From contig JBBELK010000620.1 of the NCBI GenBank assembly GCA_037783545.1, forward strand, positions 2,769,398-2,833,397: 64,000 nt of DNA. The letters run 5' to 3'. Source of the DNA: Henricia sp. BOLD:AAB3569. Its lineage: Eukaryota; Echinodermata; Asteroidea; Spinulosida; Echinasteridae. The notes below the pieces were generated by a model, which saw nothing but the letters and a program-made list of their open reading frames with translations, was not told the DNA's origin and searched no databases. Below, in pieces: positions 7,629 to 61,705 of the stretch; position 1 is the stretch's first letter; every line of letters starts with the position of its first letter. The position numbers were made by a program, and so were the translations under genes.

Positions 7629-8435
7629 GGGCCTTATCGGGATTCAAACCGGAGACCTCTGACTTACCAGGCAGATGCTGTACCAGCTGAGCTACAAGGC
7701 ACAGTGGTATACTCCCTCAGGTTTCCCCCAAGACCTCTGACACACCGGGCAGATGCTCTACCAGCTGAACTATGGGGCACAGTGGTATACTCCCTCAGGT
7801 TTCCCGAAGACCTCTGACACACCGGGCAGATGCTGTACCAGCTGAGCTATGGGGCACAGTGGTATACTTCCTCAGGTTTCCTCAAGACCTCTGACATACA
7901 TTGTACCAGGCAGATACACTACCAGCTGAGCTATGGGGGCACAGTGGTATACTCCCTCAGGTTTCCCGAAGACCTCTGATACACCGGGCAGATGCTCTAC
8001 CAGCTGAGCTATGGGGCACAGTGGTATACTCCCTCGGGTTTCCTCAAGACCTCTGACATACATTGTACCAGGCAAATACACTACCAGCTGAGCTATGGGG
8101 GCACAGTGGTATACTCTCTCAGGTTTCCCGAAGACCTCTGACACACCGAGCAGATGCTCTACCAGCTGAGCTACAAGGCACAGTGGTATACTCCCTCAGG
8201 TTTCCCCAAGACCTCTGACACACCGGGCAGATGCTGTACCATCTGAGCTATTAGGCACAATGGTATACTCCCTCAGGTTCCTCCAAGACCTCTGACACAC
8301 TGGGCAGATGCTGAACCAGCTGAGCTATAAGGCACAGTGGTATACTCCCTCAGGTTTCCCCAAGACCTCTGATACACCGGGCAGATGCTCTACCAGCTGA
8401 GCTATGGGGCACAGTGGTATACTCCCTCAGGTTTT
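7629..8435 (-). repeat. tandem array of tRNA-like SINE monomers (10 copies)
   Basis: Ten monomers of about 75-85 bases, read on the - strand, each contain a pol III A-box-like segment (TAGCTCAGCTGGTAGAGC) followed by ATCTGCC and a spacer ending CCTGAGGGAGTATACCACTG. Only the last monomer on the - strand (7629-7700) goes on to a B-box-like GGTTTGAATCCC, a closing stem AAGGCCC and a run of seven T, which resembles a pol III terminator. Monomers with ATACACTACC alternate with normal ones at 7880-8150, a two-unit higher-order repeat. The open frame through this array is a by-product of the repeat. Confidence 0.85.
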
Positions 8436-26890: not shown

Positions 26891-27317
26891 ATTCGCAAAA
26901 TTATAAACCTATCATCATTAATAATGTGCTCATCCATCTATTTGTGAAATGAAGAAGACAACTGAAATATTACAGGTACAGTAGTTTGGGAAAGTATTAA
27001 ACAATTTTAAAACGGGCCAAATTCTTAATTTTGCCTGTAATTTGCTCTGTTATGCAAGGTAAAGTTTGCTGATTTTACAGCCCGTTTATGGGGCATGATG
27101 GTCATTAAACACATGTTAAATAGGCTATTTCATTTTGGCCAAGTACTACATGTATTTGCTTACATCCTTGCTCTATGCTTTGATAGAGCAGTGGGAAAAA
27201 TGAAAAGCCAAGTTGTGCCATGGTTATTATTTTTATTAAGTCTAAATACAGAGTCCTGCTGGATTTAAAAGCACTCATTTACACTGGGACACAGTTCAAT
27301 GATATTTAGTGTAGAGC

Positions 27318-28198
27318 TACTTTTAGAAGGCTAAAAGTGTTGTTTTGGACGTTTATATTGGGACGTTATCATTTTCTGTATAACACTTTTAGCCCCTTAA
27401 CATTTTAACCCCCTTCGTCGTGTGGACCATTCTTACACGCCCTCAAGAGGCCAAATACTCAAGGCCAAATTCTTACCGTAAATTCCAAATCAGACATTTA
27501 AAAGCACACCATGAAGGTCCTTGTAATCTCAAGACTTCTGTACCCTTGTCGTTCATTGTCCATGATGACTCGAACATAAAAAAAGGATAAAAGGGAGCAA
27601 AATCTGGAGTAAAATCGACAAATCTGGACAGACGGGAGACTTGACCATTCCGATTTCGCTACTAATATCGCGTCAAAAGGAAAGTAGTCCCACCAACGCG
27701 GATAGATTTTGTTTAGCCTAGACTGGCCCCCTGTCTATGTGCGCTACGCTGCTCTCGCTCATATACAACGCGTGGGGAAGTAAATATGTGGACAGGGGGC
27801 CAGTCTAAGCTAAACAAAATCCATCCGCGTTGGTGGGACTACTTTCCTTTTGACGTGGCCTAGCATGAAGTCTGTGTACCACGCTTGCTGAAAATTTTTG
27901 ATTTTACTCCAGATTTTGCTCCCTTTTATCCTTTTTTGATGTTTGAGTCATCATGGACAATGAACGACAAGGGTACAGAAGTCTTGAGATTACAAGGACC
28001 TTTATGGTGTGCTTTTAAATGTCTGATTTGGAATTTACGGTAAGAATTTGGCCTTGAGTATTTGGCCTCTTGAGGGCGTGTAAGAATGGTCCACACGACG
28101 AAGGGGGTTAAAATGTTAAGGGGCTAAAAGTGTTATACAGAAAATGATAACGTCCCAATATAAACGTCCAAAACAACACTTTTAGCCTTCTAAAAGTA
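27318..28198. mobile_element. foldback element, family J copy 1, exact 9-bp target duplication
   Basis: GTGTAGAGC flanks it at 27309-27317 and 28199-28207. Two arms of about 400 bases are near-perfect complements around a centre of about 90 bases. Each arm starts TACTTTTAGAAGGCTAAAAG, itself a small hairpin. Copy 2 is at 29997-30888 in the reverse orientation, and one decayed arm is at 49291-49410. It lies in MINPP1-like intron 2. No protein-coding capacity. Confidence 0.92.
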
Positions 28199-28656
28199 GT
28201 GTAGAGCCATTGTCAAGGCAACTAAAAAAAGGTGGCATATTCTCTTGGGTAGTCTATTGTTGGACAGCCCATCCCAGTTGAGGTCAATATGGCCTGATTG
28301 TTACACAGTGGCTTTTTTTTTTTTTACTGTCGCCAGTCATTTTACTGTCCGTATTTCAGGTTTGCTCAGGCCTATTTGCAGCACATACACTACAGTTGGG
28401 GATATTATGGGATGTACGCGGATATTTTATTGAGGAATGCATTCTGCTCGACAGATTTTTATATAATTAGACAATTGTATCTTCATGACAGGCACACCTT
28501 GTCACAGGAATCTATTGTGAAAACAGTCATTTGAAAAGAAGAAAAAACATCAAAAATTGACAACAGACCAATATCCCTAACATAATGTACCCGGTAAGTA
28601 GTGTATGTACCGGATCAGTTAGAACCATTTCTCTTTGGAGACACCTTTTGGTGCCT

Positions 28657-29765: not shown

Positions 29766-31323
29766 GGAAACAGGACAACTCGTACCCGGGACAACTCGCA
29801 CCCAAAAAAAGACACCCTGGTCAACTCGTACCCGGGACAACTCGCACCCTTTCAATCAATTTGTTTTTTTCCCTGCAGATGGACGGGCAAGAAAAGAAGG
29901 ATTCAGGAGACAGGTGGGAGAAGGACAGATGCAGATGCAGGCCAAAATCGGAGAACATAAATAAAAAGAGCGATGAAATACATATTGGGTTCCTTCTACT
30001 TTTAGAAGGCTAAAAGTGTTGTTTTGGACGTTTATATTGGGACGTTATCATTTTCTCTATTACACTTTTAGCCCCTTAACATTTTAACCCCATTCGCTAT
30101 CGTGAATTTTGATGCACGCCCTCAAGAGGCAAAATACCGGCGTGTATAATCTTACCGTAAATTCCAAATCAGATATTTAAAAGCACAACATCGGGGTCCT
30201 TGTAATCTCAAGACTTCTGTACCCTTGTCGTTCACTGTCCATGATGACTCAAACATCAAAAAAGGATAAAAGGGAGCAAAATCTGGAGTAAAATCGAAAA
30301 TTATCAGCCAGCGCGGTACACAGACTTCATGCTGAGACGCGTCAAAAGGAAAGTAGTCCCACCAACGCGGATAGATTTTGTTTAGCCTAGACTTGACCCC
30401 TGTCCACATATTTACTTCCCCACGCGTTGTATATGAGCGAGAGCAGCGTAGCGCACATAGACAGGGGTCCAGTCTAGGCTAAACAAAATCTATCCGCGTT
30501 GGTGGGACTACTTTCCTTTTGACGCGATCATATAGTAGCGAAATCAACATGCATGACATGGTCAAGTCTCCCGTCTGTCCAAATTTGTCGATTTTACTCC
30601 AGATTTTGCTCCCTTTTATCCTTTTTTGATGTTTGAGTCATCATGGACAGTGAACGACAAGGGTACAGAAGTCTTGAGATTACAAGGACCCCGATGTTGT
30701 GCTTTTAAATGTCTGATTTGGAATTTACGGTAAGATTATACACGCCGGTATTTTGCCTCTTGAGGGCGTGCATCAAAATTCACGATAGCGAATGGGGTTA
30801 AAATGTTAAGGGGCTAAAAGTGTAATAGAGAAAATGATAACGTCCCAATAAAAACGTCCAAAACAACACTTTTAGCCTTCTAAAAGTAGGGTTCCTTCCA
30901 TTTATAATTGGAATTTATATTTAAAAATGTGATGTTTTGAGATATAATTTACCAGCTTCTGTTTGGTAATTGCATGTAGGAGCCTACATCAATATTGGTT
31001 GTTTTATCTGGATATTTTTTTTATAAAGTTAGTTATTTTTTACGTTAAAAATGTATAGAACAGTTGTGATTTTTAAACATTAAGTAAATCCTTTACTAAA
31101 TGTATTGGAATAGTGAGTGAAAGTATTAAATTTCGCCGCTTTATTTTGCGGAAACTGACAAATTCCTTTTCATACCTTTCCCAGCGATGGCAATATGGTT
31201 GTGCACATCCCATTCTCATTAAAAAAAATTAAAGAGAGCATTGAACCACTGTCAAGAGCAAAAAGGACCTTCATACCGGGTACGAGTTGTCCAGGGTACG
31301 AGTTGTCTCGGGTATGAGTTGTC
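29766..31323. mobile_element. foldback element with arms of 16-bp tandem units, nested
   Basis: The left arm (29773-29850) and right arm (31277-31323) are inverted arrays of the 16-base unit GGGACAACTCGTACCC with variants. The terminus GGAAACAGG resembles GGTACAGG of the element at 35209. Flanks TATACTTCC and TAGTATTCC may be a worn 9-base target duplication. It interrupts the element at 29678-31668 and itself holds family J copy 2. Confidence 0.75.
29997..30888. mobile_element. foldback element, family J copy 2, 10-bp target duplication
   Basis: GGGTTCCTTC flanks it at 29987-29996 and 30889-30898. The long inverted arms and TACTTTTAGAAGG ends are as in copy 1; the central spacer and the asymmetric blocks run in the opposite direction, so this copy is inserted in reverse. 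It is the innermost of three nested elements. Confidence 0.92.
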
Positions 31324-31973
31324 TAGTATTCCACCCACTGACACTTCCGTCGCAAATATTGCATTTCTGAGATAAATAAATGATAAAATTACTGCATAAA
31401 GTAATGCACAAAATGACGTGGCGAGCGGTCTGTGCGTAAGCGCGACAACAGAGGGCGCTGCGCGTGCGAGAATGGTTATCTTGTGTACTAACTGAAGGCA
31501 ATTTTTGAAGAAGAAAACGTGATTTTTCTACAAAAAAGCAACATTTGCGACAAAAGTGCAAGTGGGAAGTATATCTTAAATTTACATTATGGCATGTGTT
31601 GATTCCAGCCCCAGGAGGTAATTTCCTTAAAATCTTTGTTCAATGTACATGTATACGAAAAAAATACCTTATAATGTGAAAAAATCATGGTGCTTCACAT
31701 TATTACCCCTGGTCATTTGGCTCTTAATACATGTACATGTAGTATTTATTAACTGAACAGTCTCAACTCCCTGAGCAACTGAGCTGAGGAGTATGCGCAT
31801 GTCCCACTTCCAATTCCAGCTACCTGTTGTGTTGGGTGCTCATGTATTTTATTTATAGTCACGTACTTCAGTCTCTATGAATCCAGTCTACTATCTAGCC
31901 ATGGATGAGAAATGTCTACAGTCTACTCGTAGAAACAAGGAGTAAGAAAGAAATGTCAACTTTGAATCTATAC

Positions 31974-32829
31974 CTCTTGATATTTGCCATTTGGGTGTGC
32001 CAGGCACAGCGAGTTTCTGGGCCACTCTCTGCCAAACTTCCCCAATCTCGGCTCCATCTCGGAATGTGTCCTGCTCTCTGTCTGTTCTCCCATTGTTGAC
32101 TGCCTCAGTGCAAGTCTCCCATACATCGTAAAACCTTAGCAACGGGTCATTATCAATGGGGTTATGAGGCACCACAGTGGAGGTTGTGGTTGCATTGTTT
32201 GCGTTTTCCAAACACTCGACCGTGAAAGACCTCTGAGAATATACCGTGTGGCACGTTTGGGTTTCGCCGACGATGCCTTCGATGAATGCTCGTGCACTAT
32301 CCATGGTGCGGGTTTTACCGGTGCTTTGGAACGAGTACCGTGATAAGTTGGCTTTGGCGTCGGGGAAAAGCTCCGGAAAACGGTTGACAACTCGCGCCGC
32401 TAGCTGTCGCATCTCACGCCAACCGGTCTCCACTAGTTGAGAAGCATTAGATATCGGAATCTTGGCAGCGTCACGAAGGAAGTGAAACTCTGAATTAATG
32501 TCCGTATTCTGGAGTCGATCGATGATGTTATGAACGTCTTCTAGGTCTCCGTCGCTCGGGTAACGCGTACCGTGTCTGTAGACGACATACACGCCGTCGG
32601 GTGTGCAGTTATCCAGGCCTTCTGGAACGCTAGCGCCGCTAGAACGAGCTAACTCCAACCAGTTCAACTTGCGATTGTTTATCAAACCGGTCGTTTCCAG
32701 GGAAAGATCGTAGCCAGTTTTTGTAGCGTACAATGGAATGTTTTCGTATGCGTGGACGTAAAAACGGAGTAGATTGGACCAGTTAAAAAGCAAAAGACAG
32801 AAAAACGTAAACAGTTTCATCGTCTCCAC
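31974..32829 (-). CDS. MINPP1: MINPP1-like phosphatase, exon 1: signal peptide and RHGTRYP catalytic motif
   Basis: Multiple inositol polyphosphate phosphatase removes phosphates from InsP6 and lower inositol phosphates, usually in the ER lumen or outside the cell. Exon 1 encodes residues 1-285 and ends at a GTATAG donor (31973). Residues 1-27 are a hydrophobic signal peptide; M1 (32829) and M4 are both possible starts. VYVVYRHGTRYPSDGD holds the catalytic RHGTRYP at residues 85-91 with nucleophile H86. The region SNASQLVETGWREMRQLAAR and FQSTGKTRTMDSARAFIEG are family blocks, the latter with the conserved T-x-R-T-x-x-S/D-A. Sequons include NCT and NAT. The three exons total 1557 coding bases, 518 residues, close to the family length (487 in human). 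Confidence 0.95.
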
Positions 32830-33115
32830 GTGCGAACCGCGGACGTGATCGCATTTCGTACAGTGCGCGATCGATCAAGCACATCAAAGTCATCAATGCA
32901 ATATCAACAAAAGTGCGCCCTCAATTGACCATAATGGGGATCATGGGAGACTTTTGAGACGTTTGGTGGCAGCAAACATCCTAGGTCATATTGATCATGC
33001 GCACTTTAATATTCGTGGTTAAGGGTACGAAAGCGCTTTGTTGCCACAATAAATATTGTGATTTTGTGACGCAAGGTCACTCACATATTACGTGACCTTT
33101 CGGGTTTGACAATAG
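32830..33115. promoter_or_regulatory. probable promoter region of the MINPP1-like gene
   Basis: Sequence directly upstream of the start codon on the - strand. It contains CG-rich words (GCGCGATCGATC near 32865) and no clear TATA box, so the start of transcription cannot be fixed. Confidence 0.35.
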
Positions 33116-33260
33116 ACTGCCGAAGTGAATACGTCATCTTTTGTTAGTTGCCTAGACAAATGGCTCGATCTACACTAAAAATCACTAAACCGTGTACGTG
33201 ATATGTGTGGCTGTGCTTTTGCAATGGTACTTTTTTTCTGACGGCCATGATGTTTAGAGC
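33116..33260. repeat. dispersed repeat upstream of MINPP1-like (partner at 56960-57085)
   Basis: GTGAATACGTCATCTTTTGT, TAGTTGCCTAG and ACACTAAAAATCACT recur in the same order at 56960-57085. Family not recognised. Confidence 0.7.
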
Positions 33261-33984
33261 CAATTGCCATGGCAACCCACGTCACACTTCGGCTGTCTAT
33301 TTGTGATAAATTATTATTATTATATTAACGCACATATTTTTGTTTCAAGTCCGTGAGACAATTTGGAAATTTGTCGTCGTTGTGTATCAAAATAGCGCCG
33401 ACAACTATTTAAAACAGCGAAAATTACAAACTTAGCTGAACGATTAGAACGATACGGCAAACAAATAAAAAATAATAATGGCGCACGTGCATGACGCACA
33501 AAGTTCAGAGCGGCTGCAGATGGCCCGGTGGCCCATTTTCCATTCGACAACTGCTTGACCAATGGCGTATCGTGTACCAACAGACAACTAAACTACGCCA
33601 GTTGCCATTTGTTTGTTGCGGACACGCGATCTTTTTATTGAAATTTGATAATAAAAACTATATTTATCGTTCGTTGTCTGCTGTCAGTCACACACCGCGC
33701 ATTATGTTCACACAATGTATTATATTATCAGCATTATCTACAAAACACGTTGTGGACTCTGAAAAGGCCAAGTGCGTTTAACTTTGTTTAACCTGGGTCG
33801 CCACTCCCAAAACAACTTATTTTGCTCCCATTGCCCAATTTATTCAGATCATTTGTTTAATAATAATATATGGCATTTATAATGCGCTTTTGCCCGAAGG
33901 ATACAAAGCGCAGGGAGATAAAAAGAACTGAGGGATATCGAATCGCTCAAATCCTAGAGAAAGAGGTGGGTCTTAAAGGCAGAG

Positions 33985-34160
33985 TATGGCGTGTGGAACG
34001 TTGCAATATTCGATAATGCACAAATATATGTGCGATGTTTTTTCATATGTGTGCGATGTTTTTTCATATGTGTGCGATGTTTTTTCATATGTATGCGATG
34101 TTGAAAATATATGTGCAATAATTTGACATATATATGCAATGTTAAAAATATATGTGGGAT
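33985..34160. repeat. array of about 21-bp units (TGCGATGTTTTTTCATATGTG)
   Basis: Three near-identical and several degenerate units, preceded by GGCGTGTGGAACGTTGCAAT. The same array occurs in reverse at 57990-58172, beside the 3' end of the LINE. The short start GGTCTTAAAGGC before it resembles the end of that LINE frame, so this may be a 3' fragment of the same LINE family. Confidence 0.7.
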
Positions 34161-34282
34161 ATTTCGACATAATATGTGGGATATTTCAATGTGTGGGGTC
34201 GCGGTGTTCGAGATATGTGGGCGTGATCTTTCATAGATTGGTTTCCGATCCCTATAGATTGGTTCGCTTATTGCGAAAGTGT

Positions 34283-34397
34283 GGAATATGTGGACGGGAA
34301 CCAGTCTATTCTCCTGTGTGGAATATGTGGACGGGAACCAGTCTAGATCTTTCAATGTATGTGCGTAAACTGGTTCCCGCTCCACATATTCCACATA
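34283..34397. repeat. inverted repeat of GGAATATGTGGACGGGAACC
   Basis: Two direct copies of GTGGAATATGTGGACGGGAA with CCAGTCTA and one inverted copy (ACTGGTTCCCGCTCCACATA) make a potential stem-loop. Confidence 0.7.
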
Positions 34398-34424
34398 CAA
34401 CGACTGAATATGAGGAGTGGATTT

Positions 34425-34560
34425 GCGTGATACAAAGAAAACCAGCCCCAATAGGCCTGTACCAAAAATAAATCAGCCTGGCAGATTAAATGACAGAAAC
34501 TAAAGTGCAATTTCACGCAGCAGTCTATCAAGCTTGCAAACTTCGGTTACGGATTTGACC
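34425..34560. repeat. dispersed repeat (partner at 55430-55590)
   Basis: Shared blocks CCAGCCCCAATAGGCCTG, GGCAGATTAAATGACAGAAA-type and AACTTCGGTTAC occur in the same order at both sites. No ends defined. Confidence 0.7.
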
Positions 34561-35208
34561 AATTTGACGTAATTAGTCACAAAAATTAATTGCGAAGTTG
34601 TATCTAGTGCGCGAATTAAGCCGCCTTCTAGCTTAGAGAAATTATGAAATAAGAAGGGGTCTTAAAATCGATTTATTCAGACAAGTAGGCACTTTTAATT
34701 TAGATTTTTCAACTGAAGCATAAGAACAACTTATATAGAATCACAATCAAACAGCTTTATAGTCAAAGCCATCGATTTAATTAGTCAAACAAATTAATTG
34801 CGAAGTTGTATCCAGTGCGCGAAGCCGCCTTAGATATGTTTTGTGCACGCACATGCGTCGCTTGAGGGCGCTCTTTGCACCTCTTTCAAAATGGCCGCGA
34901 AAATGTCGAAATGGCCTTTTTAATACGAGCAAAAACAATGAACAACAAAGACACGTTTTGTGTCAAATTTGGGGATTCCGTGGCCTGCTTTTTGGAACAA
35001 GAAATGTTCGCCTGCTCGTCTGTTCGCGCCAAACTGAGGGGCGCCGAAGCCAGTTGGCACGATCGATTTTGTTTGCATTAATAAATTTCGTCATGAATCT
35101 TTGTGAACAACGTCGGCGCATATGGTCAGATGGTGGGTCGGCGCTGCGCCTGTGGCTGTGCAGCTTCGCCGCCGAGTGGCTATACGCCTATAGTTAGGTA
35201 ATGTTATG
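34561..35208. other. intergenic, no gene recognised
   Basis: A 47-codon open frame from an ATG at about 34937 has no recognised domain. A weak duplication of AATTGCGAAGTTGTATC lies at about 34590 and 34797. Confidence 0.4.
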
Positions 35209-36018
35209 GGTACAGGTCAACTCGGTCCCAAGTCAACTCGGTCCCAAGTCAACTCGGTCCCAAGTCAACTCGGTCCCAAGTCAACTCGGTCCCAAGTCAA
35301 CTCGGACCCAAGTCAACTCGGACCCAAGTCAACTCGGTCCCAAGTCAACTCGGTCCCAAGTCAACTCGGACCCTATGGGAAATTGAACGTAAACAATTTT
35401 AAAATCAATGGCCAAAGATTAATAATCACCAAAGTTGGGTTTTGAACATTGTTTTCCGAAACATATACCGTTATAGTTTACTGATAAAAATATATCATCT
35501 CGGGTGGAAATACTCCACTTAGGTAAGGATTTTCAGGCAAAATGGTTGATTACATTTTTGGACATTGCAAATCTTTTTTTTTTGTTTCGTTTACTTAAAG
35601 TGCATTTTGGTTGTTTTCGCACCAACTGTCCTGCAGAAAACTGCCCTGCAACTGCCCTGCATTTCTATAATTCTATTTTCAAAAAGTAAAGCTTGTACCA
35701 GTTGAAATATTTCGTACATTACATAAATGCAAACAAACTATTACTGAATTATATTTTTATATGAAAATGTATAGATGAGAAGTCTTTACAGGATCTGAAG
35801 GACATCCAGAAATAAAAGGTATAAATCATTTTACGTTCAATTTCCCATAGGGTCCGAGTTGACTTGGGACCGAGTTGACTTAATTAGGTCCGAGTTGACT
35901 TGGGACCGAGTTGACTTGGGACCGAGTTTACTTGGGTCCGAGTTGACTTGGGACCGAGTTGACCTGGGTCCGAGTTGACCGGGACCGAGTTGACTTGGGA
36001 CCGAGTTGACTCGAAACC
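35209..36018. mobile_element. foldback element with arms of 16-bp tandem units and exact 9-bp target duplication
   Basis: AATGTTATG flanks it at 35200-35208 and 36019-36027. The left arm has about ten units of CAAGTCAACTCGGTCC (some with GGACC); the right arm has the complementary units. The arms end inward with an inverted CCTATGGGAAATTGAACGTA. The centre (about 35395-35830) is AT-rich and noncoding. The termini are GGTACAGG and, inverted, GGTTTCGA. Nonautonomous. Confidence 0.9.
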
Positions 36019-36245
36019 AATGTTATGCACATTGTACTGATACTGTATACCTATCGGTAAGAGTTGAGAAGCTGACCCTGTTGACTTATTAAGCATCGTT
36101 AAAAGGGTTAACATGTGCAGATTTGATGGGAAAAACCAATATTTTGGGTGAGCATAGTTTAAGATTTTGTGAGGAAACACTTAGAAATTTTCCAGTCTGT
36201 TTGTACACAAGTTCTGAAGCCATAATTAACTTCTCAATTCTTTAA

Positions 36246-37055
36246 AGGAACACGTTGCCTTCAGATTTCACGAAATCTCACGTTTGAGGGTGTTCCTTAT
36301 ACTTATTAAGAGTTGTTCTTGCAATAAAACACATTTAATGTGTTATAATTAGTGAATGGTAATTTTAAAAAACAAACACTGACCTCTGACCCCCACTACA
36401 TGTCCCGCGAAATGTGTACGTATTTCAAGCCGTCAATACGATCGTCCGGGTAGTGGGCAAAATGCAGCGACGAACAGGAGTTAGGCTGGCGCCGTAGCCA
36501 GTGGTCAGGTAAACCTATCAGATGAACGCAAGGTACCGTACCATTCTCCGCCTCCCGAGACATGTGTGAAATGTAAACACACGTACCCACACACACCGAC
36601 TGGCTGTCAAAAAATGGATCGTCAAGAGAACACAGCAGACGCGTCAAAAAAGAAAAAACGAAAACCTCGCCAATCAGGGTAAGAATATTGTCATGGGACA
36701 AACCGATAGAAAGGACTTGGATGATTTATACCCAATGGTTATTGTAGACACGAATTAAAAAAAACAGGCACATCACACGCAACGGAGGAAGGAAAAATAA
36801 TTTCTTTCTCCAGGCTGGAAATAAGACTAATATAATTTCTCCGCCATTTATGGGAGTCAAGATTTTGACTCCCATAAATGGCGGAGCGTGCTGCTTCGAG
36901 AAATTACGCAAAATTGAAGCATTTCTAAGGCACGTTTGTGTGGATCATTATATTCTACTTTTTAAACATCTTTCAGATCGTGCTCATTATACTTCAAACG
37001 CTTGTAATAGCCCAAAAACGCCCAATAAAGCGCAACCCGAAGGCAACGTGTTCCT
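36246..37055. mobile_element. TTAA-flanked element (AGGAACACGTTGCCTTC ends)
   Basis: TTAA at 36242-36245 and 37056-37059 with inverted AGGAACACGTTGCCTTC ends. Inside, 36839-36885 is a perfect 21-bp stem (CTCCGCCATTTATGGGAGTC) with a short loop. The TTAA target fits piggyBac or Kolobok. Confidence 0.88.
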
Positions 37056-37138
37056 TTAAAGATGAGCACAAATTTTTTTTGTATTTGTGAATATATACTC
37101 TACAATTCTTTAAAGATGCTCGTCATACTATAGAGACT

Positions 37139-37231
37139 GCTAACCCAATCCACATACACGCCCGGGATTCGAAACGGGTACGCCAGAGGAAAGGCGAGGA
37201 AAGAACCACTACGCCAACCGGACCGCCCTTA
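37139..37231 (-). repeat. tRNA-derived SINE head
   Basis: On the - strand an A-box-like GGTTGGCGTAGTGGTTC is followed 34 bases later by a B-box-like GTTTCGAATCCC. The acceptor ends do not pair well, so it is a SINE head rather than a working tRNA. Confidence 0.65.
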
Positions 37232-37833
37232 AGCAAATTAAATTTAAAATGATCAACGGGGGTTTTACTGCAGGTTGTTTCTTTCTTATTTGTTTGTTTG
37301 AAAGAAGAAATACAAATAAAGCAAACTAACAAAACAGACAAAGTGAGAATTTTATCAATATAAATTTCTTTATTTAAATTTATAACAATTTAAAACAATG
37401 TAACGGTACAATCTGGACGATTCCAAGATTTTGGGTATCAGGCTATAAATAGTTTCATTATGTAATAATGTACGACTAACTAATTTTTTGACAAAATTAA
37501 AACCTCCCAGATATAGATGTTTAAAAATCATACACCTCAGGCGACAGACAAAAAAAGGAACATAGTTAGTCACACGAATGTGGTCACGTGATGTCTGACT
37601 GTCACATAATCATGATAATGCCGTTTTCCACTCGTGCTCGCGGGATAACTAATATTATCTTAAAGCAAAATTGACGCACTAATAACACGCGCACTCTGCA
37701 AGTACTACATGTACTCCGCGCATATGCGTAGGGACACAGTTATCTTGCAATACCATGGTGCATTTACCGGTACGCAGAGTGCAATATGAGAATCGGAAGA
37801 GTATTATGAAACATTATCACACTGTTGGTTGCC

Positions 37834-37914
37834 ATGGATCCACCAATCAAAACGACGGATTCAAGTTTGCTTGAAGATATATTATTAAGTTATCAACATT
37901 TGAAGTTATACAGG
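37834..37914 (+). CDS. possible first exon of an unidentified small gene
   Basis: An ATG in good context (GCCATGG) opens 27 codons, MDPPIKTTDSSLLEDILLSY then QHLKLYR, to a possible donor GTGTAT at 37915. If the donor is real the exon ends in phase 0, which joins exon 38859-38947 in its first frame. I do not recognise the protein. The start may be a chance open frame. Confidence 0.3.
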
Positions 37915-38217
37915 GTGTATCAGAAAAAGTAGACACTCATAAAATTGTAGATAAAATGAAAATTGTAGTATTTTTAGAAAATTGGCTCACAAATATTGAA
38001 ATATCGGTAGACATAGGTTTCGAGTTTTCATTAACGTCGTCATCATGTTGGGAATTTCACACCTGGCTGAACAGGGGCTAGTTTTGTAAACAAAGCTAAA
38101 ATTAACTTGCGCATAAAAATGGAAGATGCAAAACAGGATCAAGGAGCACGAGAGGTCAATTTGACATGTCCTTTTTTTGCTATCAGCTTATCAGAAAGTA
38201 TAGCTTTACAGAAAGTG

Positions 38218-38820
38218 TGTACCTTGAAGGGGCATCGGGGCCAACTCAGCAGGGCATGAGGCCATTGGCCTTGGTAGCCTTGGTTAATGTCAAGGCCTGG
38301 GATAGGGTATGCTGGCCAAGTTGGCCTCAGAAAGTGTATATCTTGAAGAGGCATCGAGGGGCCAACTCAGCAGGGCATGAGGCCAACTCAGCAGGGCATA
38401 AGGCCATTGGCTTTGGTAGCCTTGGTTAATGTCAAAGCCTGGGATTGAACCCTTTCGAACACGTGCGAATATGCCATTTTGGGAGTCAAATAATGCTGAG
38501 TCATTGTGGAAGCAATGTGCGTGCGCGTTGTGTGTGTCTCTTGTGGGCGTAACGCGGTTTAGTTCACCAATGGGAGCCTCATCATAGCGCGTTACGCGCG
38601 CTATGGACACAAACAATGCGCACGCACATTGCTTCCACAACGACGCAGCATTGTTTTACTCCCAAAATGACGTCATTGGCACGAGCTCAATAGGGCATGA
38701 TGGCCAAGTTGGCTTCAGAAAGTGTATCTTGAAGGGGCATCGGGACCAACTCAGCAGGGCATGAGGCCATTGGCCTTGGTGACTTTGGTTAATGTCAAAG
38801 CCTGGATTGGTTGCATTTCT
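38218..38820. repeat. repeated blocks around a hairpin element
   Basis: GAGGGGCATCG/GCCAACTCAGCAGGGCATGAGG-type blocks occur at about 38224, 38350 and 38736. Between them 38475-38670 folds back on CATTTTGGGAGT and AAGCAATGTGCGTGCGC, with the complements on the right side. Confidence 0.6.
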
Positions 38821-39385: not shown

Positions 39386-41099
39386 AGGGCTTTATCGGGA
39401 TTCCAACCTGACACCTGTGACTCACTGGGCAGAAGCTCTACCATCTGAGCTATAAGGCACAGTGGTATACTCCCTCAGATTTTCCCCAAGACCTCTGACT
39501 CACCAGACAGACACTCCACCAGCTGCTGAGCTATAAGGCACAGTAGTATACCCCCTCAGGTTTCCCCCAAGACCTATGACACACCAGGCAGATGCTCTAC
39601 CAGCTGAGCTATAAGGCCCAGTGGTATACTCCGTCAGGTTTTCCCCAAGACCTCTGACACACCAGGCAGATGCTCTACCAGCTGAGCTATAAGGCAAAGT
39701 GGTATACTCCCTCATATTTTCCTTAAGACCTTTTACACACCAGGCAGATGCTCTACCAGCTGAGCTATAAGGCACAGTAGTACAATGTACATGTATACAC
39801 CCTCAGATTTTCCCCAAGACCTCTGACTCACCAGACAGACACTCCACCAGCTGCTGAGCTATAAGGCACAGTAGTATACCCCCTCAGGTTTCCCCCAAGA
39901 CCTATGACACACCAGGCAGATGCTCTACCAGCTGAGCTATAAGGCCCAGTGGTATACTCCGTCAGGTTTTCCCCAAGACCTCTGACACACCAGGCAGATG
40001 CTCTACCAGCTGAGCTATAAGGCAAAGTGGTATACTCCCTCATATTTTCCTTAAGACCTTTTACACACCAGGCAGATGCTCTACCAGCTGAGCTATAAGG
40101 CACAGTAGTACAATGTACATGTATACACCCTCAGATTTTCCCCAAGACCTCTGACACACCAGGCAGATGCTCTACCAGCTGAGCTATAAGCCTAGGCACA
40201 GTGGTATACTCCCTCAGGTTTTCCTTAAGACCTCTAACACACCGGGCAGATGCTCTACCAGCTGAGCTATAGGGCACAGTGGTATACTCCCTCAGGTTTT
40301 CCCTAAGACCTCTGACACATCGGGCAGACGCTCCACCAGCTGAGCTATAAGGCACAGTGGTATACTCCCTCAGGTTTTCCCCCAAGACCTCTGACACACC
40401 GGGCAGATGCTCTACCAGCTGAGCTATAAGGCACAGTGGTATACTCCCTCAGGTTTTCTCCAAGACCTCTGACACACCAGGCAGATGCTCTACCAGCTGA
40501 GCTATAAGGCACAGTGGTATACTCCCTCAGGTTTTCCCCAAGACCTCTGACACACCGGGAAGATGCTCTACCAGCTGAGCTATAAGGCACAGTGGTATAC
40601 TCCCTCAGATTTTCCCCAAGACCTCTGACACACCGGGCAGATACTCTACCAGCTGACGCCTCTGACACACCGGGCAGATACTCTACCAGCTGAGCTATAA
40701 GGCACAGTAGTACATGTATACACCCTCAGATTTTCCTTAAGACCTCTGACACACCAGGCAGATGCTCTACCAGCTGAGCTATAAGGCACAGTAGTACATG
40801 TATACACCCTCAGATTTTCCCCAAGACCTCTGACACACCAGGCAGATGCTCTACCAGCTGAACTATAAGGCAAAGTGGTATACTCCCTCAGGTTTTCCCC
40901 AAGACCTCTGACTCACCAGACAGATGAGCTACATGTACAGGGCAGACGGTCTACCATCTGAGCTATAAGGCACAGTGGTATACTCCCTCAGGTTTTCCCC
41001 AAGACCTCTGACTCGCCAGACAGATGAGCTACAGGGCAGACGCTCTACCATCTGAGCTATAAGGCACAGTGGTATTCCCCCCTTAGGTTTTCCTCAAGA
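39386..41099 (-). repeat. tandem array of tRNA-like SINE monomers (about 20 copies) with a 328-bp higher-order duplication
   Basis: Same monomer as 7629-8435 (TAGCTCAGCTGGTAGAGC ... CCTGAGGGAGTATACCACTG on the - strand). The B-box-like GGAATCCCGATAAAGCCC occurs only at the low-coordinate end. A block of four monomers at about 39491-39818 is repeated without visible change at 39819-40146, so it was duplicated recently. Frames reading PYSSAGRASAWCVRGL through the array are not protein. Confidence 0.9.
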
Positions 41100-57989: not shown

Positions 57990-58171
57990 AAATATCGCAC
58001 ATATATTTTTAACATGGCATATATGTCAAATTATTGCACATAGGCCTATATTTTTAACATCGCATACATATGAAAAAACATCGCACATATATATTTAACA
58101 TCGCACATATATGTTTAACATCGCACATATATTTGTGCATTATCGAATATTGCAACGTATCACACGCCATA
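57990..58171. repeat. array of about 21-bp units in reverse (partner at 33985-34160)
   Basis: AACATCGCACATATATGTTT-type units, then TGCACAAATA-complement and CAATATTGCAACG. It lies at the 3' end of the LINE read on the - strand and may be its tail. Confidence 0.7.
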
Positions 58172-59385: not shown

Positions 59386-60686
59386 TAGTCTTGGTGCAAG
59401 ACGATACTGCGTGATATTTGTCACTGACCGCCGCGCGATAACCAACACTCACCGACAATCGCCAAGAGAGGGCGCCATACACACCAGTCTCCAGTATCGT
59501 CTTGGGACCTTTGTCGAACGTTGGTATGTGACACTGTGTGACCTCTAACCTAAGCTTATACAAATGCATTATAGAGGTCAACAGAGTTCCACATAATGAG
59601 CATGCCAGCCTGGCAACTTTCTGTGCCTGCACAGCTAGGGTTATTTCCTTCCTACTAAATCATGGTCCCATATATCCTCCACAAAAAAAAGCCACTTGTA
59701 TATACGTTATACCCGAATCAAGTGTGTTACAAATTGGGGAGAATCATAAACGTAAAATTTAAAAGAACGGCTCAGATTGTCCGCTGCCGAGCTATAGACT
59801 TACCCGGCGCGGCCCGCGCCCCGCGGTGGAATTCCCGATCCACACACGCCCCCAAAAAGCAACTGTTGTAACCTCAAAATGGCCACAAATACATCTGAGG
59901 TACAAGAGTAGCCTATCGAGGTTTTAGCTGGGTACAATGACTGACTTACATTCTTAAAGAAAGTGCAATTTTCCGACCGATTTCGAGACCGGCTGTGCGT
60001 GCCGCACGGCATTTCACACATTTTGCAGAATTTTGCGTGTGCCGGACCGGGAATAATGAAAATGCGATGCCTGCTAAATATACTGAAATAAAAGAAGTTC
60101 GATCGTGTCCAGGTTCGTGTTTGCGAGAAAGATTTGTGAAATTGTCTACTGTTCATGGGGATACTATTTGTTTAAAATTGTATTCTAATAAACGTGTGCT
60201 ACGGGTGCTGTTTGTCGCCCACAAATTAAAGCCTGCCCTTTGCCAGCGTCATAATTTTTAGTGGTAAATTCACTGTATATTTCACACGGTGATGGACGAA
60301 CTGTACCAAGCATAATTAACACAGCAACCGCTTGGTCAATTTTTGCAACCAAAGTATTTCTAAAATCTGTTGTAACTTGTGTGTAGCTAGAGCCTCATTT
60401 TCTTCATCATTGTACTTTTGATTTTCCCGAAGTTGCTGCGAGACGTCGATCATTTGCGGAAACAAATAGGCATGACCTTTTGTTTAAAAAAAAAATCGGA
60501 ACATTTTTGAAGACACTATAATTCTCGAAAATCAGAAATGTTCACAGATTTACGCCTAACTTACACAATATAAACACGATGACCGTAGAAAACTTCCCCT
60601 GAAATGGTTTTGTCTGAAGTGCTATAGTCTTTGAGAAATTAGTAAAACAATTAGTTTTCGTCTCATATGAGACGAAAATTCAATTC

Positions 60687-60871
60687 GCCCCAAAACCATT
60701 TCGCCCAAGTGCCATTTCGCCGCCAAACCACTTTGCCTGAGTGCCATTTCGCCCCAAATCACTTCGTCCAAACACTACATCGCCCATATGCTACTTCGCC
60801 CCAAAACCACTTTGTGCACAGGCCGAGGTTCAGGGCGAAATGGTTCAGGGCGAAGTGGTTTTGGGGCGAAA
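60687..60871. repeat. inverted arrays of 16-bp units (ACTTCGCCCCAAAACC)
   Basis: The left array has seven 15-16 base units such as ATTTCGCCCAAGTGCC; the short right array has the complement (GGGGCGAAATG, GGGCGAAGTGG). The layout copies the arms of the elements at 29766 and 35209. I found no target duplication around it. Confidence 0.75.
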
Positions 60872-60912
60872 TGACTGCAAACCCTTTTTTGACTGTTTTC
60901 TCAAAAGTTAGA

Positions 60913-60947
60913 CCATGGAGGAAGGAAAGACTTTCCTTCCTCCATGG
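60913..60947. repeat. perfect palindrome
   Basis: CCATGGAGGAAGGAAAG meets its exact complement with a one-base centre. Significance unknown. Confidence 0.9.
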
Positions 60948-61705
60948 TTAGACGAAGTTCGGAGCTGGTTTTTGCTCAGGTTAGTTTTAATCATGCATAT
61001 CTTCAATCATACAGGGGGATAAAACTATTTGCAACAGTTTACCAATCATGTATACTATCTTTAAATTTGGCGATGAAACGTGATTTTAGTAGTAACAAAA
61101 ATTATGTTTTTTCTTCGAAAACACAGGACCCATGGCAGTCTCGTCCGCGTAGCGCTAGGCCTAGTAGCTAGCCAGCGAGTGCCGGCGTACGGTTTTCGCA
61201 GTCTGTGAAATCATAATAAAGACACGTTTCTGCAGCGTACGGGTTCAGCCAAATAACGGCTTCGGTTGCCGGGCTGACAAACCAAAGCCGAAGTTCGTTG
61301 AATCCATTGGGAGAAAAACTGGCCCCATTGCCACATTTTCATATTTTTTCTTTTAAAAACAAATAAAGCACGGACTTGTCTGACGCGATAACGTGTGCTT
61401 TTCCTGTTTGATAACTAAGACGTACGTACAGGTACCAGACTTCACAGCGCTCGGCTTGAAATATGTTAATAAGCCTACGTCATAGGTATGCATGGCATAA
61501 TGAGCAATGCTTGGAATGCGCTCGGAATTTCCCGAGCGGATTCAGGAAATGTCCCAAGACGATACTGCAGAGCACGGACGTAGACTGGTTCCCTGTCCTC
61601 ATAGTACAGTGTATGGCGCCCTCTCTTGGCGAATGTCGGTGAATGTTGGTTAGCGCGCGGCGGTCAGTGACAAATATCACGCAGTATCGTCTTGCACCAA
61701 GACTA

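Follow-up and report, generated by a model that had tools for sequence, protein, structure and literature searches.

Two pairs of inverted arrays of 16-bp units in this part of the Henricia sp. genome raise the question of which mobile elements they bound and what the units might be for. They lie in a 64-kb stretch, hereafter the window, that forms the end of contig C620 in the 740.7-Mb assembly analysed. We conclude that the two elements, A and B, are probably members of the Mutator (MULE) superfamily of DNA transposons, as non-autonomous foldbacks whose units would be bound by the transposase of coding relatives. The preliminary description had read them as foldback transposons, and this is supported for A, B, and their relatives. 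Element B comprises the following features.

35209..36018, no strand: element B, an 810-bp foldback element that ends in the tip GGTACAGG on the left side and, read inward, in GGTTTCGAG on the right side
35217..35373, plus strand: left arm of B, 10 units of AAGTCAACTCGGTCCC (Tandem Repeats Finder, TRF)
35850..36009, minus strand: right arm of B, 10 units, inverted (TRF)
35200..35208, no strand: left copy of the target duplication AATGTTATG, 8 or 9 bp
36019..36027, no strand: right copy of the target duplication AATGTTATG
35374..35849, no strand: interior of B, 79–97% alike to 39 other places, among the best 40 of 319 candidates

Tandem arrays were called with TRF and arms were paired by an inverted-repeat search of the window. 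At B, period-16 arrays extend over 35216-35373 and 35850-36011, and the two arms pair with each other. The tips first described for A and B are confirmed and differ between the two ends of each element; they are 8–10 nt long, stand outside the first unit, and adjoin the first core at all clear ends read. The perfect 9-bp duplication noted at B is also present, both copies of AATGTTATG matching without a difference. A G precedes the GGTACAGG tip in all four B-type elements with a visible tip (window, L041, L042, and L045), so that the duplication may be one of 8 bp followed by a G belonging to the tip.

The idea that the interior of B is unique was rejected: it occurs in none of eight loci (some of them overlapping), but in the 39 other places genome-wide. 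A right-type tip is found at the expected end and in the expected orientation at 18 of the 22 scored B-interior places (contigs up to C366), and the closest full-length siblings show 90% identity. The 39 further matches, together with these tips, indicate that B is one copy of a sizeable subfamily. The start of locus L041 (C19:1-7000) is 88–95% alike to window positions 34540-38744, on both sides of B. Nearly at the site of B, it harbors another B-type element, which is oppositely oriented and lacks both the B interior and a clean duplication. This may reflect either two insertions separated by a few bases or an exchange of elements at one site.

Element A contains a second element in its interior.

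29766..31332, no strand: element A, a foldback element that ends in the tip GGAAACAGG on the left side and, read inward, in GGAATACTAG on the right side (TRF and inverted repeats)
29775..29849, plus strand: left arm of A, 4 units of type GGGACAACTCGTACCC, interrupted (TRF)
31277..31322, minus strand: right arm of A, 3 units, inverted (TRF)
29996..30889, no strand: nested 894-bp palindromic element, with the direct repeat GGGTTCCTT(C) at both sides

TRF places period-16 arrays at 29773-29849 and 31277-31324, and the arms of A pair with each other as well. The nested palindrome, which occupies much of the interior and has its own 9–10 bp direct repeat, belongs to a repeat family distinct from A (the best 40 of 2,243 candidate places were scored genome-wide). 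Such a palindromic element of about 890 bp is present in two window copies, 27317-28199 and 29996-30889, with direct repeats of 9–10 bp. It is found between the arms of a B-type element at C6 too, and therefore may favour foldback interiors. The segment C957:261891-263518 is 100% identical to window positions 29773-31400 over all 1628 bases, perhaps reflecting a contig overlap.

Units of this kind are abundant in the genome. A two-unit pattern spanning those of A and B, CAACTCGNNCCCNNGNCAACTCGNNCCC, has 1600 + 1609 = 3,209 matches in the whole genome and none when read backwards as a chance control. With a looser pattern, two CAACTCG cores spaced 10 to 33 bp, we obtained 7404 + 6931 matches against 81 in the control. 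The preliminary description had set the finding of many unrelated periods without a shared core against its own proposal. This is not what the arrays show: among 100 listed pairs, one core follows the other at 16 bp in 50 cases, 17 in 16, 32 in 8, 15 in 7, and 11 in 3, and at other distances in 16, a tally that informs on the period only, as CAACTCG is shared through the construction of the pattern.

According to genome-wide searches, the left-type tip GGNNACAGGNCAACTCG is present 345 times and the right-type tip GGNTTCGAGTCAACTCGG 153 times, with controls at zero. Tips were paired among those listed on contigs up to C189. A left-type partner lies within 6 kb for 23 of 42 right tips, and all 23 of these unlike-tip pairs face outward, with lengths from 78 bp to 3.9 kb. 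Like-tip pairs within 12 kb comprise four left–left pairs and one right–right pair. Three B-type pairs measure exactly 78 bp (C6:62801-62878, C57:795980-796057, and C152:927456-927533) and hold two tips and a few units, nothing more. If these pairs moved as such, tips and a few units would suffice for movement.

Target duplications were scored in 16 hand-chosen elements; a pair in L053, for example, was not among them, and the C54 pair was entered as two elements although it represents one duplication. The flanks match over at least 8 bp in 6 of the 16, compared with 2 of 238 mismatched left/right flank pairs, and over at least 9 bp in 4 of the 16, compared with 0 of 238. The C6 element was missed in this test because its outer unit is mutated; by separate reading it has a 9-bp duplication. 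Duplications of 8–10 bp are thus present in seven of the 16 elements (B, C6, C9a, C9b, C93, C216, and C808).

Which enzyme might have moved such elements is suggested by a Pfam search of the genome for the MULE domain (PF10551, cut-off 27.6 bits), which identified 15 places. These loci were picked by protein and not by array. Arrays with a period of 16 bp stand at three of them, C93, C216, and C808, all with the core; two of the three show arrays on both sides, and a longer cut of C93 adds the third. At C216, inverted arrays of GTCGTTTCGTACCCTG enclose a 479-aa frame that includes a MULE domain (41.9 bits), and the direct repeat is one of 10 bp, CCTGCATGGC. C808 represents another copy of the same type, with the same arrays and an 8-bp repeat, CTCAAAAT. 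At C93, a 224-aa MULE frame (46.8 bits) is located between arrays of CAACTCGTACGCCGAC; both arms are present, as is a perfect 9-bp repeat, AGGTCGAGC. The C93 tips, CGAAGCTGG and GAATACAGG, are each followed by TCAACTCG, and their plan is the same as in A and B. The array-bearing transposases are 56–61% identical among each other. The preliminary description had proposed to look for an autonomous relative with the same tips and a transposase; transposase-bearing relatives with tips of that type are represented by these loci. Arrays of the C216 type follow a regular order, a plus array and then a minus array within 1.5 kb, in 18 of 19 fully listed loci (counted by eye, with a truncated last locus left out).

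Other coding remnants are less complete. C54a and C54b, segmental duplicates of each other, contain degenerate MULE frames between arrays. C162 has kept one end, with the same tip, and no array was found on its other side in the 1.4 kb read. On C57, a MULE C-terminal fragment (296078-296323) begins 88 bp past an A tip pattern (295974-295990) and is tied to family A by position only; C109 and C126 are likewise linked by position only. Two candidates were rejected. In the inverted pair C10:471946-487764, considered as an autonomous element, arrays mirror each other 13 kb apart without a MULE-like frame, the five frames of at least 150 aa between them being repeat-coded or not MULE-like by eye. 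On C142, two A tips stand 11.1 kb from each other, and none of the listed MULE matches falls at that place. An array-less relative, C504, contains a FLYWCH domain of 27.1 bits, above the cut-off of 23.6 bits. The segment C504:606-644 kb (L059, L061-L063) holds four MULE genes, spaced by about 12 kb, one of them a 490-aa frame with FLYWCH and MULE domains and without nearby arrays. This cluster possibly consists of host genes derived from a transposase. An AlphaFold model of the C808 N-terminal frame had a mean pLDDT of 38.7 and is uninformative on the fold.

The units themselves appear to be constrained. Judged by its letters, the 16-bp unit is a 12-bp word, CNNYTCGNNCCC, followed by a loose 4-bp linker. 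Phasing 48 arrays on [CT]TCG gave 28 distinct consensuses; most of these arrays come from loci fetched with a pattern that fixes the core. C is found at position 5 in 25 of the 28 and at position 14 in 25, and a purine at position 6 in 27; after position 6 come any base, a pyrimidine, TCG (set by the phasing), and two free bases. One tally of constraint covered 24 sequences, leaving out L040, L055, and the arrays without a phasing match. A fairer one, based on the window and the loci chosen by protein with L078:329-414 left out, compared 88 units of 14 arrays with their array consensus: departures affect 10 of 352 letters of YTCG and 96 of 528 letters of the linker and the two inner bases. In one common register, 7 of 16 columns are identical in the A, B, C93, and C216 lineages, whereas shuffled units, left free in rotation and strand, shared at most 6 in 300 sets. 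Pairwise shuffling of the units gave p values of 0.015 for A–B, 0.003 for A–C93, 0.0095 for A–C216, and 0.19 for C93–C216. The units share one register, in which YTCG and CC are conserved and the linker and the two inner bases are free. The fixed 16-bp period with a drifting sequence that was first described corresponds to a common pitch and a shared core in A, B, and their relatives. Its proposed meaning, an array bound by a transposase, is a putative function that this register fits: the core is rarely changed, and at the clear ends the tip stands directly against the first core, both on the basis of sequence. In locus L046 (C24:205000-208500), inverted arrays of 15–16 bp with a unit like GGGGGCGAGTCGGTCA are found at 89-157 and 218-350; they form a further family with a YTCG core, beside A-type arrays.

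These observations can be assembled into a mechanism. The transposase, supplied by a few coding relatives, would combine a MULE catalytic domain with a zinc finger, probably a FLYWCH one, at its N-terminus. The zinc finger would bind the 12-bp word of the units in each arm, and a row of such sites may provide affinity and end specificity beyond that of one short word, and may help pairing. The enzyme would then pair the two arms, and its catalytic domain would cut at the tips. Insertion through a staggered cut of 8–10 bp would leave the direct repeat. The interior would be dispensable for movement, and could vary between copies. A and B may have been moved by these coding lineages or by others closely related to them.

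Several results weigh against this reading. No target duplication of at least 8 bp was found in the flanks of A, which is one of 9 such elements among the 16 scored, and C54a and C54b have no clear duplication. Neither the B-type elements nor family A yielded an intact transposase, and for family A there is only the fragment tied by position. The coding lineages carry units other than those of A or B, and the likeness of the B unit to theirs is not significant (p 0.28 for B–C93 and 0.19 for B–C216). At 12 of the 15 PF10551 loci there is no such array within 1.5 kb, and none accompanies the C504 genes in 605.6-610.1 kb; the check for arrays covered these 15 loci, C504, and a few further MULE matches. 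The C93 frame spans part of the transposase only, the N-terminus of C216 has diverged, the coding part of C808 is split over two frames, and the FLYWCH match in C808 (17.4 bits) is below the cut-off. Finally, units within one array are not independent, so that p values for constraint are too small and only its direction and size are trustworthy.

A rival that is possible, if doubtful, accepts A and B as MULE foldbacks and takes their arrays as by-products: slippage and gene conversion would make a minisatellite, and a binding role would fall to the outermost unit only. It agrees with the variation of unit number between arms and copies (in a tally that counts some overlapping loci twice and was not used as a test), with the frequent identity of units within one array, and with the very short arms of the 78-bp elements, which imply that long arrays may be unneeded. 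However, change along the unit is uneven, the linker and the inner NN varying while YTCG hardly does, and one register recurs across families with otherwise different units.

The preliminary description had included a third place with inverted 16-bp arrays, here called array C, and had ascribed the same unit length and a shared core to all three.

60680..60875, no strand: array C, 16-bp units of ATGCCATTTCGCCCCA in both orientations, in a miniature inverted-repeat transposable element (MITE) at about 60523-61066

It is quite unlikely that A, B, and C form a single group, in which element types without relation to each other would use a common system of 16-bp arrays. C has a period of 16 (TRF, 60684-60812) and the short core YTCGNNC in common with A and B, its two-unit pattern has 9042 + 9505 = 18,547 matches (control 0), far above those of A or B, and TTCGCCCC arrays also exist outside the C-type MITE, in L052 and L053. 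Yet, by hand estimate, about one random 16-mer in eight would contain so short a core when both strands are read, and the C unit is not significantly like the others: at best 8 of 16 bases are identical to A (shuffle p 0.69) and 10 of 16 to B (p 0.08). Moreover, the neighbours of the C array are conserved on both sides with other copies of the MITE of about 0.5 kb, the inverted ends of which are near TTAAAGGCAGTATAC, so that the array is internal to it. We thus rejected C as a third member of the A/B group; the inverted arrays with paired arms, the shared unit length, and the core stand for A and B, and period and YTCGNNC alone extend to C. The MITE is perhaps flanked by TTAA, which by eye stands on the left in L007 and L057 and on the right in the window copy; none of the copies compared shows it on both sides. 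Still other arrays are present in the window. Long arrays at 7649-8434 and 39413-41099 have a 77–78 bp unit containing GCTCTACCAGCTGAGCTAT, which looks tRNA-derived, and arrays of 20–21 and 41 bp (TGTGCGATGTTTTTTCATA) are found in opposite orientation at 34022-34178 and 58047-58132.

An origin of A and B in the P superfamily, as Galileo-like foldbacks moved by a THAP-domain transposase, is highly improbable and disfavoured for the coding lineages found: Galileo resembles A and B in its foldback-like arms with internal repeats, in which transposase-binding sites are described as shown (PMC3688188), but the coding relatives here have a MULE domain and gave no THAP match in Pfam scans, and Galileo, with its THAP transposase and repeats of about 210 bp, is reported to generate duplications of 7 bp as opposed to the 8–10 bp found here (PMC3688188; PMC3573991).

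The binding role of tandem repeats in Foldback and Phantom elements was called untested in 2013 (PMC3688188). The present genome provides thousands of units spread over several families, with coding relatives, a register in common, and a sharply defined set of predicted key bases. Units, relatives, and base prediction together make the binding question directly testable in the tube or in yeast. In addition, a common repeat of the genome is linked to the enzyme that is its likely source. What is new here is the link between arrays and coding lineages within one genome, and the count of the positions that, by this comparison, are held.

Foldback arms made of short tandem units are also a feature of the TU elements of sea urchin, with a 15-bp unit, and of FB/NOF in Drosophila. 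A sea urchin foldback is cited in another report (PMC4079207). The elements described here resemble the Phantom subclass of Mutator in their animal host and in duplications of 8–10 bp; Phantom elements are described with FLYWCH in part (PMC6446971). Similarly, Tm1, a Mutator/Foldback element of root-knot nematodes, is reported to have composite arms in which a short unit is repeated in tandem, 7-bp terminal motifs that differ between its two ends, duplications of 8–10 and mostly 9 bp, a 496-aa MULE transposase with FLYWCH, and a majority of MITE-like copies (PMC3169594). Tm1 thus shares with A and B the plan of tandem-unit arms, unlike tips, and duplications of 8–10 bp. Its unit, CGATTCAGTATCCGC, measures 13–15 and mostly 14 bp (PMC3169594), versus 16 bp here. 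In 15 shuffle tests against the units of this genome, p ranged from 0.03 to 0.97; the likeness lacks significance apart from the best two, both against the C216 unit, which reached 0.03–0.06, uncorrected over the 15 comparisons. A repeat common to Tm1 and the units found here is therefore not supported. One inserted base sets the Tm1 unit in the same register, again without significance, and a literature search with six unit strings returned Tm1 as the sole transposon paper among the matches listed.

There is also a broader proposal that we consider unlikely: several MULE families of this genome would have retained CNNYTCGNNCCC on a 16-bp pitch as a single recognition word, the array would drift together with the zinc finger of the transposase, the Tm1 repeat would fit the register, and the code would be older than the animal phyla. 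Under that proposal, the pitch, roughly 1.5 turns of the helix, would put every second site on the same face.

The mosquito Aedes aegypti provides another parallel. The MULE Muta1 is described with a terminal motif followed by 9 copies of a 12-bp repeat with 3–4 bp spacers, and as mobile in yeast; Muta1 and Muta5 are reported to generate duplications of 8 or 9 bp, to encode FLYWCH and DDE domains, and to have hundreds of non-autonomous copies with variable interiors (PMC5225508). The resulting pitch of 15–16 bp is near the 16 bp found here, a likeness in layout. The Muta1 tip is given as an imperfect palindrome (PMC5225508), whereas the tips here differ between the two ends. Since the plan matches Tm1 and Muta1, A and B belong to a kind of element already known, and the nematode Tm1 and the mosquito Muta1 are the systems closest to them in plan.

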